Source: Chryseobacterium sp. 52
GTDB taxonomy: Bacteria; Bacteroidota; Bacteroidia; Flavobacteriales; Weeksellaceae
Direction of reading: 5' to 3'
Assembly (NCBI RefSeq): GCF_002754245.1
Contig: NZ_PEEX01000001.1
Span: 4,754,001 to 4,818,000 of the forward strand
DNA: 64,000 nt
Position 1 is the stretch's first letter. The number at the start of each line of letters is the position of its first letter. Below are positions 16,093 through 21,618 of this stretch, piece by piece. The position numbers and the translations under genes were made by a program. Under the pieces are notes generated by a model. The model ran no database searches, had not been told where the DNA came from, and was given only the letters and a program-made list of their open reading frames with translations.

Positions 16093-17112
16093 ATGAGTAC
16101 CGAAACATTAGAAAAAGCTAAATCTGCAATTCCTGTAAGAGGATTTCTGGATATAAAAGATATAGCGATCCCTCAAGGAGAAGAATTAGTGAAAGCTATT
16201 CTAAAGCTTAAAGAAGAAAAAAATGCGGTAATCCTTGCCCATTATTACCAGCCGGGAGAAATTCAGGACATCGCTGATTTCCTTGGAGATTCTTTACAGC
16301 TGGCAAGACAGGCAAAAGATACTAATGCAGACATGATTGTATTCTGCGGGGTACATTTCATGGCAGAAGCCGCCAAAATTCTGAACCCAACTAAGAAAGT
16401 AGTTCTTCCTGACACTATGGCAGGATGCTCTCTGGCAGACGGATGTTCAGGAGAAGGTTTGAGAAAAATGCGTGAGCAGCACCCGAATGCTTTAATTGCA
16501 ACCTACATCAACTGTAATGCTGAAACTAAAGCAGAAAGTGATATCATCGTAACCAGCTCCAATGCGGAAACTGTGATTGAAGCTCTGCCGAAAGACAGAC
16601 CCATCATTTTTGCACCGGATAAAAACTTAGGAAGGTATTTATCTAAAAAAACAGGTCGTGATATGATCCTTTGGGACGGAAGCTGCATCGTACACGAGGC
16701 ATTTTCTATGGAAAGAATCGCTCAGCAGCTGGCAGAAAATCCAGATGCAAAAATGATTGCGCATCCTGAAAGTGAAGAGGCCGTCTTAAAACTGGCTCAC
16801 TTTATCGGTTCTACATCTGCCCTATTGAATTTTGTAGAGAAAGATGACTGTCAGAAATTCATCATTGCAACTGAAGAAGGAATTCTTCACGAAATGAGAA
16901 AGCGTGCCCCACACAAAGAACTGATTCCTGCTCTTGTTTTTGACGAAAGCTGCAACTGTTCAGAGTGTTTCTACATGAAGCGCAATACCATGGAGAAATT
17001 ATATCTCTGCATGAAATATGAACTTCCGGAAATTCTTATTGACGAAGAACTTCGTTTAAGAGCTCTGAAGCCAATTGAGGCCATGCTGGATCTCTCCAAG
17101 TCTATTAAATAA
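16093..17112 (+). CDS. nadA: Quinolinate synthase
   Basis: Condenses iminoaspartate with dihydroxyacetone phosphate to quinolinate in NAD biosynthesis, using a [4Fe-4S] cluster. Family motifs are clear: NAVILAHYYQPGEIQDIADFLGDS, IVFCGVHFMAEAAKIL, LPDTMAGCSLADGC and the C-terminal CNCSECFYM. The cysteines of the CGVHF and CNCSEC segments are likely cluster ligands. At 339 residues it is of normal length. Its TAA overlaps the ATG of the following secreted protein by one base (TAATG). No nadB or nadC lies in this window. Confidence 0.96.
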   Translation: MSTETLEKAKSAIPVRGFLDIKDIAIPQGEELVKAILKLKEEKNAVILAHYYQPGEIQDIADFLGDSLQLARQAKDTNADMIVFCGVHFMAEAAKILNPTKKVVLPDTMAGCSLADGCSGEGLRKMREQHPNALIATYINCNAETKAESDIIVTSSNAETVIEALPKDRPIIFAPDKNLGRYLSKKTGRDMILWDGSCIVHEAFSMERIAQQLAENPDAKMIAHPESEEAVLKLAHFIGSTSALLNFVEKDDCQKFIIATEEGILHEMRKRAPHKELIPALVFDESCNCSECFYMKRNTMEKLYLCMKYELPEILIDEELRLRALKPIEAMLDLSKSIK

Positions 17113-17618
17113 TGAAAAAAATATTTTTATTATCTTTTTTGTTCTCTGTCAACTTTTACTTTTCTCAGAATCATAAAGAAACAGTGATCAGGCAGGCAAC
17201 TGAAATGAGAAAATATTTCATGGAAAAAAATTATAACGCTTACAGCAATTATGTTTACGAAGGCGTTATAAAAATGTTTGGCAACAAACAAAAAATGATC
17301 AATACTTCAGTAGAGGCAATTGATAAAATGAATACATCAGGATACATTTTTAAGAAAGTCGATTTTTCTGAGGTAGGTGATATAATTCCTATTAAAAATG
17401 AGCTTCAAACAGTAGTTCATCAAAAAATAGAAATGGAAACCCCAAAAGGAAATATGTCTGGTGATCATTATTTGATAGCAATTTCAAAAGACAATGGAAA
17501 ACTTTGGAAATTTATAGATACTTCAGGAAAAGATATTGAAACTGTGAGGAAATATTTTCCAAATTTAAGTTCTAAGCTTTTTATTCCGAAGAAAAAAATG
17601 ACTAAAAAGACAATTTAA
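17112..17618 (+). CDS. Small secreted protein of unknown function
   Basis: 168 residues with a signal peptide (MKKIFLLSFLFSVNFYFSQ, cleavage near residue 19). The mature part is a small alpha+beta protein with a helix (ETVIRQATEMRKYFMEKNYNAY), followed by strands that include a MSGDHYLIAISKDNGKLWKFID stretch, which suggests an NTF2-like or DUF4440-like fold; this is a guess from pattern, not a match. The start overlaps the nadA stop by one base, so translation is probably coupled. It ends in a strong bidirectional terminator. I do not recognise a function. Confidence 0.75.
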   Translation: MKKIFLLSFLFSVNFYFSQNHKETVIRQATEMRKYFMEKNYNAYSNYVYEGVIKMFGNKQKMINTSVEAIDKMNTSGYIFKKVDFSEVGDIIPIKNELQTVVHQKIEMETPKGNMSGDHYLIAISKDNGKLWKFIDTSGKDIETVRKYFPNLSSKLFIPKKKMTKKTI

Positions 17619-17632
17619 ACCAAGAAATATAA

Positions 17633-17660
17633 AAAAGCACTGTTTTCACAGTGCTTTTAT
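17633..17660. terminator. Bidirectional terminator
   Basis: An 11-bp perfect stem, AAAAGCACTGT with ACAGTGCTTTT, loop TTTC, with T runs on both strands. It serves the nadA-linked gene rightward and the leader-peptide gene at 17665 leftward. Confidence 0.85.
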
Positions 17661-17664
17661 TTTT

Positions 17665-17868
17665 TTAAAATGGTCCGAAACAGAAATAATCTACCTTTAC
17701 ACGTAATTTACAGCATTCAGGTAATGCATTAAAATCTTCACATGATCTTGGATAATCCGGTCCTACTCCATAAGGTCCGGGAGGGCAGTTTTCAAAACAG
17801 CTACCTACTCCATTACCTCCGTTAATTGATTTCAAATTTTGTCTGTCTAATTTTTTCAGATTTTTCAT
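17665..17868 (-). CDS. Bacteriocin-like double-glycine leader peptide 1
   Basis: 67 residues. The leader MKNLKKLDRQNLKSINGG matches the double-glycine type seen in Chryseobacterium bacteriocin-like peptides, with cleavage expected after GG (residue 18). The core of 49 residues has five cysteines (in GSCFENC, SCEDF and ECCKL contexts count six) and prolines, which suggests disulfides. The frame runs upstream to 17910, but the ATG at 17868, in the context ATTAATATGAAAAAT shared with peptide 2, is clearly the start. A TATATTTATA element lies about 20 nt upstream. No dedicated peptidase-transporter is nearby. Function unknown; antimicrobial or signalling roles are both possible. Confidence 0.8.
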   Translation of the reverse strand: MKNLKKLDRQNLKSINGGNGVGSCFENCPPGPYGVGPDYPRSCEDFNALPECCKLRVKVDYFCFGPF

Positions 17869-17954
17869 ATTAATTTTTTTGGTGTATAAATATAGCATTT
17901 TAAACCCCATCTATGAAAAATATACTAATTAAAGCTAAATCAGGTTGTAATTAA

Positions 17955-18128
17955 TTACAGCATTGGTGCATAACAGGTTCCACCTGGTTTTCTCCAGCAT
18001 CCCCATGCTCCGCCACCGCGGAAGCATACAAATGCAGCACCACCACATGTTTCACTCTGAAATTCGGTAATTCCACTACCACTAATCTTGCTTTTCTGTT
18101 CTCTTGAAAGCTTTCTAAAATTTTTCAT
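17955..18128 (-). CDS. Bacteriocin-like leader peptide 2
   Basis: 57 residues, too short for most gene callers. The leader MKNFRKLSREQKSKISGSG has GSG instead of GG at the cleavage site. The core is rich in Gly, Trp and Cys: ETCGGAAFVCFRGGG, then AWGCWRKPGGTCYAPML, with four cysteines. The upstream region repeats that of peptide 1 (TATATTTATA, then ATTAATATGAAAAAT). It is the second gene of a leftward tandem array with its own probable promoter. No known toxin motif is seen. The shared leader and start context make it a real gene even without homology to a named family. Confidence 0.72.
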   Translation of the reverse strand: MKNFRKLSREQKSKISGSGITEFQSETCGGAAFVCFRGGGAWGCWRKPGGTCYAPML

Positions 18129-18212
18129 ATTAATTTTATTTTGGTTTTATAAATATAATAACTTAAACCTAATTAATGAAAAATATATCACACAATACAG
18201 AATAAACATTAA

Positions 18213-18275
18213 TTAATCCCCGGGCTTGCTGCCCCCGTTGATGTTTTTCAATTGTTGTTTTGATAGTTTTTTCAT
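18213..18275 (-). pseudogene. Truncated leader peptide 3 (leader without core)
   Basis: The frame encodes MKKLSKQQLKNINGG and then only five residues (SKPGD) before TAA. The leader is intact, with a perfect GG site, but the core is lost or replaced by a stop. It lies in the same tandem array and orientation as its neighbours. It may be a decayed family member, or a free leader peptide that acts as a decoy for the export peptidase. Decay is the simpler reading. Confidence 0.6.
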
Positions 18276-18326
18276 AATATTTTTTTGTGAAATTGATATG
18301 AATTTAACTAATTATACTATTGAAGT

Positions 18327-18545
18327 TTACCAGTCTACTTCAGGGCCAGGCATACCGCATCCTCCACCTCGCAGACAATTACCAGCGCTGCAGACTTGCC
18401 AAACCTGAGGACAAATTTTAATATCTTCCGGAACACTACATTTGGTAGAGCCGCCATTGGGGGTCCTACAATCAATTAAAACATAACCATAACCTCCCGT
18501 TATACTGCTAAGCTCTTTTCTTGACATTTTTTTTGCATTTTTCAT
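18327..18545 (-). CDS. Bacteriocin-like double-glycine leader peptide 4
   Basis: 72 residues. The leader MKNAKKMSRKELSSITGG ends in GG at residues 17-18. The core has six cysteines (IDCRTP, TKCSVP, IKICPQ, QVCSAG, NCLRG, GGCGMP) and ends GPEVDW, which resembles small disulfide-rich secreted peptides. The start is the ATG at 18545, after an A/T-rich stretch ending AAAAATCAATATG, parallel to the other members. No modification enzyme lies nearby, so an unmodified disulfide-bonded product is more likely than a RiPP with thioether or heterocycle chemistry. Function unknown. Confidence 0.78.
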   Translation of the reverse strand: MKNAKKMSRKELSSITGGYGYVLIDCRTPNGGSTKCSVPEDIKICPQVWQVCSAGNCLRGGGCGMPGPEVDW

Positions 18546-18589
18546 ATTGATTTTTTTTTAATTATGAATTATACTTTGAAATAAACCTG

Positions 18590-18772
18590 TTATTCTCCTG
18601 TTGGAATTTTTCCACAATAGATTCCTTTAGGAATGCATTTTTTTGCATATTCGCACCAATAATGCGAGTAAATACAGACGCATGGAAAAGGACTACACTC
18701 CATACCTGCACCTACCACCGCTTTTAATTCTTCTCTTGTAAGCTTTTTAATTCTTTTCCTAGTATTCTGAAT
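18590..18772 (-). pseudogene. Bacteriocin-like leader peptide 5 with lost start codon
   Basis: An open frame of 60 codons closely follows the family pattern (NTRKRIKKLTREELKAVVGAG, then a core with six cysteines such as ECSPFPCVCIYSHYWC and KKCIPKGIYCGK). By alignment with its neighbours the start should be ATG AAA, but the sequence reads ATT CAG at 18772-18767, with an in-frame TAA directly upstream (18775-18773). The double glycine is also changed to GAG. Either translation begins at ATT or the gene is silenced. The core remains intact, which suggests recent loss or use of the rare start. Confidence 0.6.
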
Positions 18773-18967: not shown

Positions 18968-19075
18968 ATGAATTTTCTAAGAAACATATCAGATATTTCT
19001 ACACCGGAATTACTTATTTCGGGGTTATCTTCTGTTTCTACATCAACGACTACAATTACAACAACTACCCCGTAG
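18968..19075 (+). CDS. Threonine operon leader peptide (thrL-like)
   Basis: A 35-codon frame beginning MNFLRNISDIS and ending STSTTTITTTTP then TAG. Seven of the eight codons at 19046-19069 are Thr and one is Ile. This is the same logic as E. coli thrL, whose Thr and Ile codons stall ribosomes when charged tRNA is scarce. It follows a good promoter and precedes thrA by 92 nt; its stop codon forms the loop of a 7-bp hairpin. It is not homologous to E. coli thrL in sequence and must be judged by function: attenuation of thrABC. Confidence 0.82.
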   Translation: MNFLRNISDISTPELLISGLSSVSTSTTTITTTTP

Positions 19076-19131
19076 CGGGGTACATTTTCACATATTATTT
19101 CCGGTACCTGTACTCTTTTTTTTAAAGAGTA
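19066..19131 (+). promoter_or_regulatory. Threonine attenuator hairpins
   Basis: Three overlapping stems are visible. Stem 1: TACCCCG (19066-19072) with CGGGGTA (19076-19082), its loop being the leader TAG. Stem 2, terminator-like: GGGGTACA (19077-19084) with TGTACTCT (19109-19116), two G-U pairs, running into eight Ts. Stem 3: TACTCTTT (19111-19118) with AAAGAGTA (19124-19131). Stems 1 and 2 exclude each other, as do 2 and 3. My reading: a ribosome stalled early at Thr codons lets stem 1 form and blocks the terminator. Confidence 0.65.
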
Positions 19132-19167: not shown

Positions 19168-21618
19168 ATGAAAATCTTAAAATTCGGTGGCACATCTGTC
19201 GCCAGTTCCCAAAACATCTTTCTGGTAGAAAGTATCGTAAAAAAAGAATCTCTAGAAAATAGAATTATTGTGGTCGTTTCAGCACTTCATGGGATAACTG
19301 ACAGTCTTATAAAAGCTGCAGAATATGCTTCTGTTAAAGATGAAAGTTACATTCCGATCATTAAAGATCTCGAAGAAAGACATCTTGAACTCGTAAAAGA
19401 ACTGATCCCTATTTTAGAACAGAGCTCATGGCTAAGCTTCGTAAAAAAACACTGTAACGATATGGAAGACATCTATAGCGGGATCTTTGTGTTAGGTGAA
19501 TTTACAGATAAGATCAGAGATAGAATTACTTCATATGGAGAGTTTCTTTCTTCCCATATTGTCGCAGCCAGACTTCAGTCCGAAGGATTAGACTGTCTGT
19601 GGATGAACACCGCAGAACTGATCAGAACTGATAGTAACTTCAGTAATGCCAGAGTAAATTTTGATATCACAGAAGTAAATTTAAAAAATTACGTGACTGA
19701 GCATCAAAATCAAGTCATTGTAGCCCCTGGTTTTATAGCCAAAGACCTGAGCGGAAATGCTACCACATTAGGGAGAGGTGGTTCAGATTATACAGCAGCG
19801 ATCATCGCAGCAGCTGTTTCTGCCGAAGAACTGCAAATCTGGACAGATGTAAGCGGCATGATGACCGCAGATCCAAGATTAGCTTCCAATGCCAAGCCCA
19901 TCCCTGAGATCTCTTATCATGAAGCGATGGAACTTTCCCACTTTGGGGCAAAAGTTCTTTATCCACCTTCCATACAGCCTGTAATGGCCAAAAACATAGA
20001 TCTTAAGATTAAAAATACTTTTGATCCTGATGCTTCTGGTACTTTAGTTTCCTATAATCTGAATATTTCTGAAAATAAAAAACATCAGATTGCAGCGGGT
20101 GTTTCCAATATGAACCCTATTGCTCTTCTTACTTTGGAAGGCAGTGGAATGGTGGGAATTCCCGGAATTTCTGCAAAGCTGTTTCAATGCCTCAGTTTTG
20201 AAAAAATCAATGTCATTCTTATAACTCAGGGATCCTCGGAACATTCTATTACCATCGCAGTTAATGAAAAAGATATATTTCATGCAGAAAATGCCGTCAA
20301 TTTGACTTTTGCAGATGATATAAAACTTCAGAGAACATCTCCTGTAACTATAGAAACAGGTCTTTCAATTGTTGCGCTTGTGGGAGAGAACATGAAAAAC
20401 AGAAGTGGAATCAGTGCCAAAATGTTTGGATGTCTGGGTAACAACGGCATTAATATCAGAGCTATTGCACAGGGATCTTCAGAAAGAAATATCAGCATTG
20501 TCATTGCAGAAAAAGATACCAGAAAAGCAGTCAATGTTCTTCATGAAGAGTTTTTTGAATCAGAAATCAAGCAGGTGCATCTCTATCTCTGCGGAACAGG
20601 GAATGTGGGCTCTAAGCTTATCCAGCAGATCTATGAACAGAATAATTATCTGCAGGAAAATCATTTAATCAATTTACGGATTGCCGGTATCTCCAACAGC
20701 CGAAACATGCTTTTTTCCGATAAAGGAATCTCTGAAAGCGAATTGAGCAACTGGAATGAAAAAGCTGTTGAGGCATCTGTCCATGGATTTGCAGACCAAA
20801 TCATCTCACGGAATCTTCGGAACTCAGTTTTTATTGATGTTACTGCCAGTTCAAAAGTACCGGAGGTTTACGAAAAATTATTAAAAAGAAGTATCAATAT
20901 TGTAGCCTGTAATAAAATAGCTGCATCCTCAGATTTTGAACAGTATAAAACATTAAAAAACACGGCAAGAAACCATAACTGTAAATTTTATTTTGAAACC
21001 AATGTAGGTGCCGGGCTTCCGGTTATTGGAACCATTAATGATCTGATGAAAAGCGGAGATAAAATAACCTCTATTCAAGCTGTATTGAGCGGAACTTTAA
21101 ATTTTGTATTTAACAATTATGACGGAAGCAGAACATTTTCCGAAGTGGTAGCCCAGGCTCAGAAAGAAGGTTATACGGAACCTGATCCCCGTCTGGATCT
21201 TACTGGAACTGATGTAGCCCGCAAGATTTTAATTTTGGCCCGGGAAGCTGGATATCCTCTACAGTTTAATGATATTGAAAACGAAAGTTTTCTGCCTGAG
21301 GAATGCCTGCAGGGAAGTGTGGAAGACTTTTATGTAAAGCTTACTGAATACGAAGATCATTTTAAAAGTTTACTGTATTCTGCCCAAAAAGACGGCAACA
21401 TTTTAAAATACACTGCTGAGTTTAAAGATGGAAAAGCCAAAGTAGGGCTGCAACACGCCGCTTCGGACAGCGATTTGTATCACCTCTATGGTAAAGACAA
21501 TATTGTCATCTTTAAAACTTTAAGATATTCCGAACAGCCTCTTGTTGTAAAAGGTGCCGGTGCCGGAGCTGAAGTAACAGCCAGTGGTGTTTTTGCAGAT
21601 ATTATCCGATCCGTTTAA
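19168..21618 (+). CDS. thrA: Bifunctional aspartokinase / homoserine dehydrogenase
   Basis: Catalyses the first and third steps of the aspartate pathway to threonine. The N-terminal kinase (about residues 1-290) starts MKILKFGGTSVASSQN and has GFIAKDLSGNATTLGRGGSDYTAA. Two ACT domains follow (about 310-460; GISAKLFQCLSFEKINVILI and GISAKMFGCLGNNGINIRAIAQGSS), the likely site of threonine feedback. The C-terminal dehydrogenase starts with the NAD(P) motif LCGTGNVGSKLIQQI and contains FETNVGAGLPVIGTI and EPDPRLDLTGTDVARK. The 816 residues match the E. coli ThrA layout. It is preceded by a leader-peptide attenuator, and thrB follows after 10 nt. Confidence 0.97.
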   Translation: MKILKFGGTSVASSQNIFLVESIVKKESLENRIIVVVSALHGITDSLIKAAEYASVKDESYIPIIKDLEERHLELVKELIPILEQSSWLSFVKKHCNDMEDIYSGIFVLGEFTDKIRDRITSYGEFLSSHIVAARLQSEGLDCLWMNTAELIRTDSNFSNARVNFDITEVNLKNYVTEHQNQVIVAPGFIAKDLSGNATTLGRGGSDYTAAIIAAAVSAEELQIWTDVSGMMTADPRLASNAKPIPEISYHEAMELSHFGAKVLYPPSIQPVMAKNIDLKIKNTFDPDASGTLVSYNLNISENKKHQIAAGVSNMNPIALLTLEGSGMVGIPGISAKLFQCLSFEKINVILITQGSSEHSITIAVNEKDIFHAENAVNLTFADDIKLQRTSPVTIETGLSIVALVGENMKNRSGISAKMFGCLGNNGINIRAIAQGSSERNISIVIAEKDTRKAVNVLHEEFFESEIKQVHLYLCGTGNVGSKLIQQIYEQNNYLQENHLINLRIAGISNSRNMLFSDKGISESELSNWNEKAVEASVHGFADQIISRNLRNSVFIDVTASSKVPEVYEKLLKRSINIVACNKIAASSDFEQYKTLKNTARNHNCKFYFETNVGAGLPVIGTINDLMKSGDKITSIQAVLSGTLNFVFNNYDGSRTFSEVVAQAQKEGYTEPDPRLDLTGTDVARKILILAREAGYPLQFNDIENESFLPEECLQGSVEDFYVKLTEYEDHFKSLLYSAQKDGNILKYTAEFKDGKAKVGLQHAASDSDLYHLYGKDNIVIFKTLRYSEQPLVVKGAGAGAEVTASGVFADIIRSV

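Follow-up and report, generated by a model that had tools for sequence, protein, structure and literature searches.

The window analysed here is a 64-kb stretch of Chryseobacterium sp. 52, whose 5.30-Mb genome is a single contig, and spans its bases 4754001-4818000. It contains an array of five small leftward frames with double-glycine (GG) leaders, located between nadA and thrA (aspartokinase-homoserine dehydrogenase). These frames are one cluster among dozens of scattered genes for small, probably disulfide-bonded secreted peptides. We read the array, with a probability of roughly three in four, as encoding precursors of secreted disulfide mini-proteins, exported in trans by a single leader-reading, oxidising machine built on a peptidase-containing ABC transporter (PCAT) and an HlyD protein. 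Sequence comparisons show that the frames share a leader which mostly ends in GG, that cysteines in the cores come in even numbers, that the position in the nadA-thrA interval is conserved, that genes 1 and 2 are under purifying selection whereas genes 3 and 5 have decayed, and that such leaders co-occur almost completely with the locus encoding the proposed machine.

An earlier note on this DNA had described five leftward frames of 67, 57, 20, 72 and 60 residues, and all were recovered in the sequence. Its claim of cysteine-rich cores agrees with the counts of 6, 4, 0, 6 and 6 cysteines, and its claim of a shared export leader with matches in all five frames, three of them at or above the cut-off, to NF047798 (leader_Chryseo), the NCBIfam model of a 'bacteriocin-like protein' (cut-off 23.5 bits). 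Gene 1 (17665..17868, minus strand, as are all five) encodes a 67-residue precursor with the leader MKNLKKLDRQNLKSINGG and a six-cysteine core, scoring 36.1 bits. Gene 2 (17955..18128) encodes a 57-residue precursor with a four-cysteine core and scores exactly the cut-off, 23.5 bits, while gene 3 (18213..18275), a 20-residue frame made of the leader plus five residues and thus almost without a core, scores 27.8 bits. Gene 4 (18327..18545), a 72-residue precursor with a six-cysteine core, obtained 22.5 bits in the frame scan and passed the cut-off in the whole-genome search (23.8 bits). Gene 5 (18590..18772), a 60-codon frame with a leader eroded at its start and a six-cysteine core, stayed below it in both scans (21.2 and 21.9 bits). 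None of 14 control genomes passed the cut-off, with eight giving matches at E <= 10, and the array leaders are beyond chance.

Further searches characterised the individual peptides. A profile of the gene 1 family matched 40 database proteins, itself included, and a protein search with gene 2 found 10 relatives. The earlier note had suggested that annotation may miss the array, but such peptides are not missed in general: among relatives of genes 1 and 2, several bear the NCBI name 'bacteriocin-like protein' and others 'hypothetical protein'. Here, 'bacteriocin' is a name and not a result. Scores for the CCPGW putative bacteriocin family NF047792 (23.0, 15.1 and 14.4 for genes 5, 1 and 3, genes 2 and 4 not being listed; cut-off 80) and for Bacteriocin_IIc (PF10439; 16.1 and 14.9 for genes 1 and 4, genes 2, 3 and 5 not being listed; cut-off 27.1) were all under the cut-offs, and membership in either family was rejected. 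Sequence searches of the PDB returned one weak match for gene 1, to R-spondin-2 (E 0.017), and no match for gene 2.

The leader family extends over the whole genome. We retrieved 59 leader matches, corresponding to 54 genes at 36 loci once two matches that were not fetched (one in a 440-residue frame, one weak), two pieces of one broken gene and one match without GG were set aside. The window's five genes form the largest cluster. Precursors are 41-94 residues long (median 55). The decayed genes 3 and 5 are among the 54, and gene 3 was excluded from the cysteine count, in which 52 of 53 cores hold an even number (binomial p 6e-15, kinship ignored) and none of the cysteines falls within the first 18 residues. 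The 177 distinct peptides encoded close to the 80 oxidoreductase loci described below, from other genomes, likewise have an even number in 169 cases, which is zero in two of the 169; the eight odd ones carry one, three, five (four peptides) or seven (two peptides) cysteines. Even numbers at so high a frequency point to disulfides.

The earlier note had found no peptidase-containing transporter in the window and placed the machinery elsewhere, and both statements stand. No C39 transporter is encoded in the window, the four C39 places of the genome all lying outside it, two of them with matches above the cut-off. One of these two belongs to a PCAT in a class I lanthipeptide cluster with LanC and a LanB split into N- and C-terminal parts (L036, genome 3641250-3648893). 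The other, at genome position 42146, lies in a locus encoding a 502-residue VKOR-thioredoxin protein, a 730-residue PCAT and a 432-residue HlyD protein, with three leader peptides interleaved (41448, 41723 and 44401). On a circular contig, about 0.57 Mb would separate this VKOR-PCAT locus from the array. The 730-residue protein carries the Pfam domains C39, ABC_membrane and ABC_tran that define a PCAT, aligns with PCAT1 (4ry2) over residues 2-723 (E 1.4e-110) and scores under the cut-offs of the named NCBIfam exporter subfamilies (for example, 446.9 versus 523.85 for TIGR01193). The 502-residue protein passes the cut-offs of PF07884 (40.7 bits) and PF13462 (28.8 bits), as befits a VKOR-thioredoxin fusion, and belongs to no NCBIfam family at E <= 0.001.

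Relatives of this oxidoreductase were found in 80 records, 78 from Chryseobacterium and two from 'Weeksellaceae bacterium', the best being 91-92% identical and including those of C. herbae, C. vrystaatense and C. endalhagicum. Within 7-kb flanks, the 80 loci contain a PCAT in 75 cases, an HlyD protein in 74 and leader peptides in 67; contig ends truncate several of the loci where one is missing. The six cysteines of the oxidoreductase (four in the VKOR part plus the thioredoxin CxxC) are kept in 78/78 proteins of at least 400 residues (78 of 81 oxidoreductases), and the C39 and Walker motifs of the PCAT in 27/27 (this genome's protein and those from 26 of the 75 loci). An in-frame TAG within the oxidoreductase match was observed in four genomes of genus g23 (G046, G062, G074 and G084), and may represent either an alignment edge or a real interruption.

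One set of 246 family genomes, 99 of them in the genus, was searched for leaders, the oxidoreductase and C39 domains. Leader counts of 35 per genome in this search, or 29 in the order-wide one, are lower bounds. The earlier note had suggested looking across the genus for leaders together with C39 transporters, and the result was near-complete co-occurrence of the leaders with the VKOR-PCAT-HlyD locus. A leader match is present in 93/99 genomes of the genus. At least three were found in 90 of the 92 genomes with the oxidoreductase, versus none or one in the seven without it (Fisher p 2.4e-9, kinship ignored); in six of these seven, no leader reaches E <= 0.1, and the seventh, G207, has one marginal match. 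One of the two exceptions, G194, has a shortened oxidoreductase, a PCAT match starting at residue 96 and a single leader. Among 21 chosen genomes, the PCAT orthologue is absent from all six leader-less ones and is 85-92% identical in the others tested. In four of the six, the best match is a relative at 45-46%; the remaining two give none at E <= 1e-100. Outside the genus, 12/12 genomes with a leader at E < 1e-5 also match the oxidoreductase. In an order-wide draw of 296 genomes, three from outside the family, all of one genus, had a leader at E <= 0.001, one each.

These distributions also bear on the other C39 transporter, since the cores could in principle be class I lanthipeptides produced by the LanB/LanC cluster in which it lies. 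Such a cluster is indeed present, with a 64-residue precursor nearby (L088, genome 3649265) that follows a sub-threshold match (28.1 bits) to DUF805b, an orphan RNA (Rfam RF02914; gathering score 35.6 bits). That precursor, however, carries another type of leader, that of the pinensins (NF038180, 44.3 bits; cut-off 24), and the cysteine parity points to disulfides. Moreover, five genomes whose one C39 match stands beside the oxidoreductase (G177, G112, G148, G190 and G232) keep from 5 to at least 35 leaders; in G177, assembled as one contig, the single C39 match at E <= 1e-5 lies 0.9 kb from the oxidoreductase, and the genome has at least 35 leaders. A lanthipeptide origin was rejected on the strength of these single-C39 genomes, and we consider it very improbable. 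LanB and LanC were not found among ten scanned neighbours of the array.

The oxidoreductase bears an N-terminal extension that may link it to the leaders. Residues 1-125 mostly precede the VKOR part and contain no conserved cysteine. The one confident structure model of five for this region has its best PDB matches in the peptidase domains of ComA, a double-glycine protease and PCAT1, and the C39-like domain 3zua ranks tenth. The extension is predicted to adopt a C39 peptidase fold lacking its cysteine, and such a dead C39 domain is perhaps the part with which the oxidoreductase reads leaders. Under the proposed mechanism, the PCAT would bind each leader, cut after GG and pump the core out with HlyD; the oxidoreductase would hold the same leader through its dead C39-like domain, and its VKOR and thioredoxin parts would form the disulfides of the core. 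One machine would in this manner serve, in trans, some 54 genes at 36 loci. More tentatively, the mature peptides would, in the manner of bacteroidetocins, serve extracellularly in competition with related bacteria.

The history of the array was examined in 16 relatives picked by the likeness of their oxidoreductase (13 at 87-92%, three at about 80%). Leader peptides occupy the nadA-thrA interval in 16/16 of them, with one to nine members each. Leftward ones are present in 15/16, G203 having only a single one on the opposite strand, and in G191 the contig stops within the interval. An extra leader peptide on the opposite strand (MKNLKKLDKECLKSINGGT... or similar) was observed on the nadA side of the array in 9/16 relatives (L100, L106-L111, L113 and L114) and is absent from the window. 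Within 1.5 kb downstream of nadA, leaders are missing in 7/7 oxidoreductase-less genomes and also in 13/23 others (only 251 bases being available in G151), so that their absence beside nadA is uninformative by itself.

Three of the five, genes 1, 2 and 4, appear intact. The frame of gene 5 opens at ATT, and its leader is not preceded by any ATG, GTG or TTG. The earlier note had regarded three members as too short or irregular for gene callers and hence liable to be overlooked. The irregularities are real, gene 3 lacking a core and gene 5 a usual start, but we read these two as decayed copies and not as overlooked small genes, because whole counterparts exist in relatives: that of gene 3 (about 66 residues, 6-8 cysteines) in 6/16 (G169, G191, G196, G229, G139 and G225), and that of gene 5, with a conserved core, in 4/16. 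Gene 5 may instead be weakly started. Elsewhere in the genome, a leader gene at 2721062-2721117 is split into two frames and appears to be another decayed member.

Substitution patterns indicate that the surviving genes are constrained. The ratio of nonsynonymous to synonymous rates (dN/dS) is 0.146 for gene 1 (leader 0.096, core 0.169; 12 sequences including the window's) and 0.091 for gene 2 (leader 0.101, core 0.081; 12 sequences), and every cysteine column of both is complete in 12/12. These values place genes 1 and 2 under purifying selection. Gene 5 has a ratio of 0.085 (5 sequences), and gene 4, with one orthologue among the 16 relatives, 0.256 on that single pair. The diversification of cores proposed in the earlier note is not supported by the ratios of genes 1, 2 and 5, orthologous cores being conserved; spread of the genes by duplication is supported. 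Its further statement that the cores are mutually unrelated is partly true; gene 1, the whole counterparts of gene 3 and further paralogues share, by eye, a pattern like C..C..GPG..C..Y..L..C..V.V..C. Because the member number varies, genes 3 and 5 have whole counterparts elsewhere and dN/dS is low, copies at this locus appear to have been gained, lost and spoiled while surviving orthologues were kept.

Two dismissive explanations can be weighed on the same data. The array could be decaying remnant DNA without current function, in line with the damage to genes 3 and 5 and with the differing member numbers; the constraint and intact cysteines of genes 1 and 2, along with the promoter-like elements that remain, make this improbable. 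Nor are the frames likely to be chance or mis-called open reading frames, as their shortness, the missing usual start of gene 5 and the missing core of gene 3 might suggest. A leader profile built from this genome, with gene 1 in its training set, finds, at the threshold used, exactly five places in the 64-kb window, namely the array genes; together with the curated family model, the 16/16 relatives and the dN/dS values, this refutes the idea, whose probability we regard as negligible.

As to expression, the earlier note had singled out TATATTTATA upstream of genes 1 and 2. The element is present ahead of both (17885..17894 and 18148..18157, minus strand) but reads as an ordinary -7 element, which we take to resemble the Bacteroidetes consensus TAnnTTTG, and not as a special signal. 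It occurs twice in the window, with 0.47 expected and two copies reached in 9/100 shuffles; ATTAATATGAAAAAT also occurs twice, against 0.03 expected and 0/100 shuffles. A -7-like element lies within the 70 bases upstream of 32/54 leader genes, compared with 14.9 +/- 3.2 of 57 in shuffles, 8/57 in the region -200..-130 and 23/57 on the reverse strand. Control of the window's array by DUF805b was rejected, RF02914 having no match upstream of it or elsewhere in the window. A loose regular expression for this RNA matched 11 times across the 16 nadA-thrA regions and 9 times in the window, at off-consensus places that we treat as chance. Ordinary promoters, rather than DUF805b, thus appear to drive the array.

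Other members of the leader family do stand behind this RNA, which is reportedly from Weinberg 2017. Nine matches above the gathering score were detected in this genome, four of them 18-22 bases before the start of a leader gene, a pairing that, if the number of genes is treated simply, would arise by chance with a probability of 4e-7 to 1e-5. Elsewhere in the genus, a leader peptide follows in 16/29 best matches per genome and in 21/40 further matches, one of the 40 being from the leader-less G220 and not followed by a leader; this sample omits G200:C1:3149951, which precedes a leader, and G257:C1:4135975. Matches before leader genes were observed at L029, L027, L003 and L010 and in relatives, once within the VKOR-PCAT locus. 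Among nine other targets examined in this genome are caspase-domain, phage tail-collar, trypsin-like and DUF6520 proteins, two RCC1-repeat proteins, two proteins without a Pfam family and, behind the sub-threshold match, the pinensin-type precursor, and the DUF805b regulon may largely consist of secreted small proteins.

Taken at its widest, the proposal is of a genome-wide mini-protein secretion system. A VKOR-thioredoxin protein with a leader-reading dead C39 domain, along with one PCAT and HlyD, would oxidise and release dozens of disulfide peptides encoded across the chromosome; a subset would be switched by DUF805b, within a regulon largely of secreted small proteins, and the window's array would be its largest cluster in this genome, a place where copies are gained, lost and left to decay. 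We hold this extended version tentatively, at somewhat below even odds.

Several results weigh against secretion by such a machine. The case is built from sequence and predicted structure. Structure prediction for the gene 1 family is poor (predicted local distance difference test, pLDDT, 65.4; predicted template modelling score 0.44) and silent on disulfides. The N-terminus of the oxidoreductase scores 13.9 bits against PF03412 (cut-off 22), one of its five structure models is confident (pLDDT 76.9; others 39-46), and an hhalign comparison with the C39 domain gave no support. G206, the second exception in the genus, has a whole oxidoreductase and PCAT with only two marginal leaders, and G207 keeps a 92% PCAT without the oxidoreductase. 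Outside the genus, 8/20 oxidoreductase-matching genomes have no leader at E < 1e-5, most of these matches being 25-36% relatives or fragments. Finally, the best nadA tree of 47 genomes implies six changes per trait, and only three independent, well-supported pairs were found (mostly two agreeing, none opposing and one neutral; sign test not significant), so kinship contributes to the co-occurrence.

A separate question concerns the role of the mature peptides. Antagonism falls a little short of an even chance, and two observations count against it: no immunity gene was recognised among the ten scanned neighbours, and cores are conserved rather than diversifying. Both fit the alternative that the cores are signals or biofilm or surface factors, not antibacterials, by analogy with Synechococcus, where biofilm formation depends on EbfG1-4 and the C39 transporter PteB (PMC4997328). 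The sharing of DUF805b between some leader members and other, partly secreted-looking proteins is also in its favour. The turnover at the locus, with one to nine members, and the dozens of different cores per genome would nevertheless be unusual for signals, and no receptor family was found among the ten neighbours; we thus see this alternative as a credible minority view. Some other role is unlikely.

The ten scanned genes around the array are housekeeping genes, an efflux channel or without a family. They comprise, on the nadA side, an IPP transferase, YicC, guanylate kinase and NadA and, on the thrA side, the aspartokinase-homoserine dehydrogenase, a GHMP kinase, threonine synthase and FolB, with the outer-membrane efflux protein further off. 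A 168-residue protein without a Pfam family above cut-off (17112-17618, plus strand) is convergent to the array, and a terminator-like hairpin of 11 pairs that scores on both strands (17633..17658) lies between them. A 35-residue Thr-rich frame (18968-19075, plus strand) ends 95 bases ahead of the thrA gene (19168-21618), with a hairpin-like repeat at 19066-19082. Similar frames stand 93-98 bases before thrA in 15/15 relatives examined. The frame looks like a threonine attenuator leader, on which no Rfam family scores.

If these proposals are correct, orphan 'bacteriocin-like' genes become a testable system, in which the loss of one gene, that for the VKOR-linked PCAT or the oxidoreductase, should abolish dozens of secreted peptides. 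They suggest a new route to disulfide peptides, in which the export leader is read by an oxidoreductase, and place DUF805b, an orphan class of RNA, in a likely physiological setting. The natural mini-protein scaffolds, dozens per genome in many of the 93/99 leader-matching genomes of the genus, also constitute a resource.

The peptides themselves are of a kind already catalogued in databases. NF047798 describes the same N-terminal leader; it models only these 18 residues and is silent on export, disulfides, number per genome and regulation. Our literature searches, judged by titles and abstract openings, returned no paper describing the leader family, its machine or DUF805b. Prochlorosins are lanthipeptides produced by one LanM from many dispersed precursors with a shared leader. 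The likeness lies in one machine serving many precursors; here, the shared steps would be export and disulfide formation. Chryseobasin, as far as its report is available, is a different Chryseobacterium peptide (PMC10214503). The pneumococcal rtg system also pairs GG peptides with a PCAT; it is Gram-positive, and the accessible part of its description mentions no oxidoreductase with a C39-like domain (PMC7018657). EbfG1-4 and PteB resemble the present case in that several small GG proteins are released via one C39 transporter, and differ in belonging to a cyanobacterium, in numbering four and in their demonstrated biofilm role, with no VKOR partner mentioned in the available text (PMC4997328).

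The nearest system with a tested function, among the sources as available, is that of the bacteroidetocins (Nat Commun 2019, PMC6671954). In the accessible portion of that paper, a four-cysteine GG peptide is served by a C39 transporter and a thiol oxidoreductase, from a locus of four genes that includes a transmembrane protein, with leaders of 15-16 residues and no obvious immunity gene. Both systems thus occur in Bacteroidetes and combine a short GG leader, a cysteine-containing core, a C39 transporter with a thiol oxidoreductase and the lack of an obvious immunity gene, a likeness drawn from gene content. Here, transporter and oxidoreductase also stand beside leader peptides, but at a locus other than the array, and about 54 scattered precursors, an HlyD protein and an oxidoreductase with a C39-like domain set the system apart from that description (PMC6671954). 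The differences from the bacteroidetocins are therefore the fan-out from one machine to many precursors, the fused C39-like domain and the RNA, and it is the wide reach of one machine that looks new.

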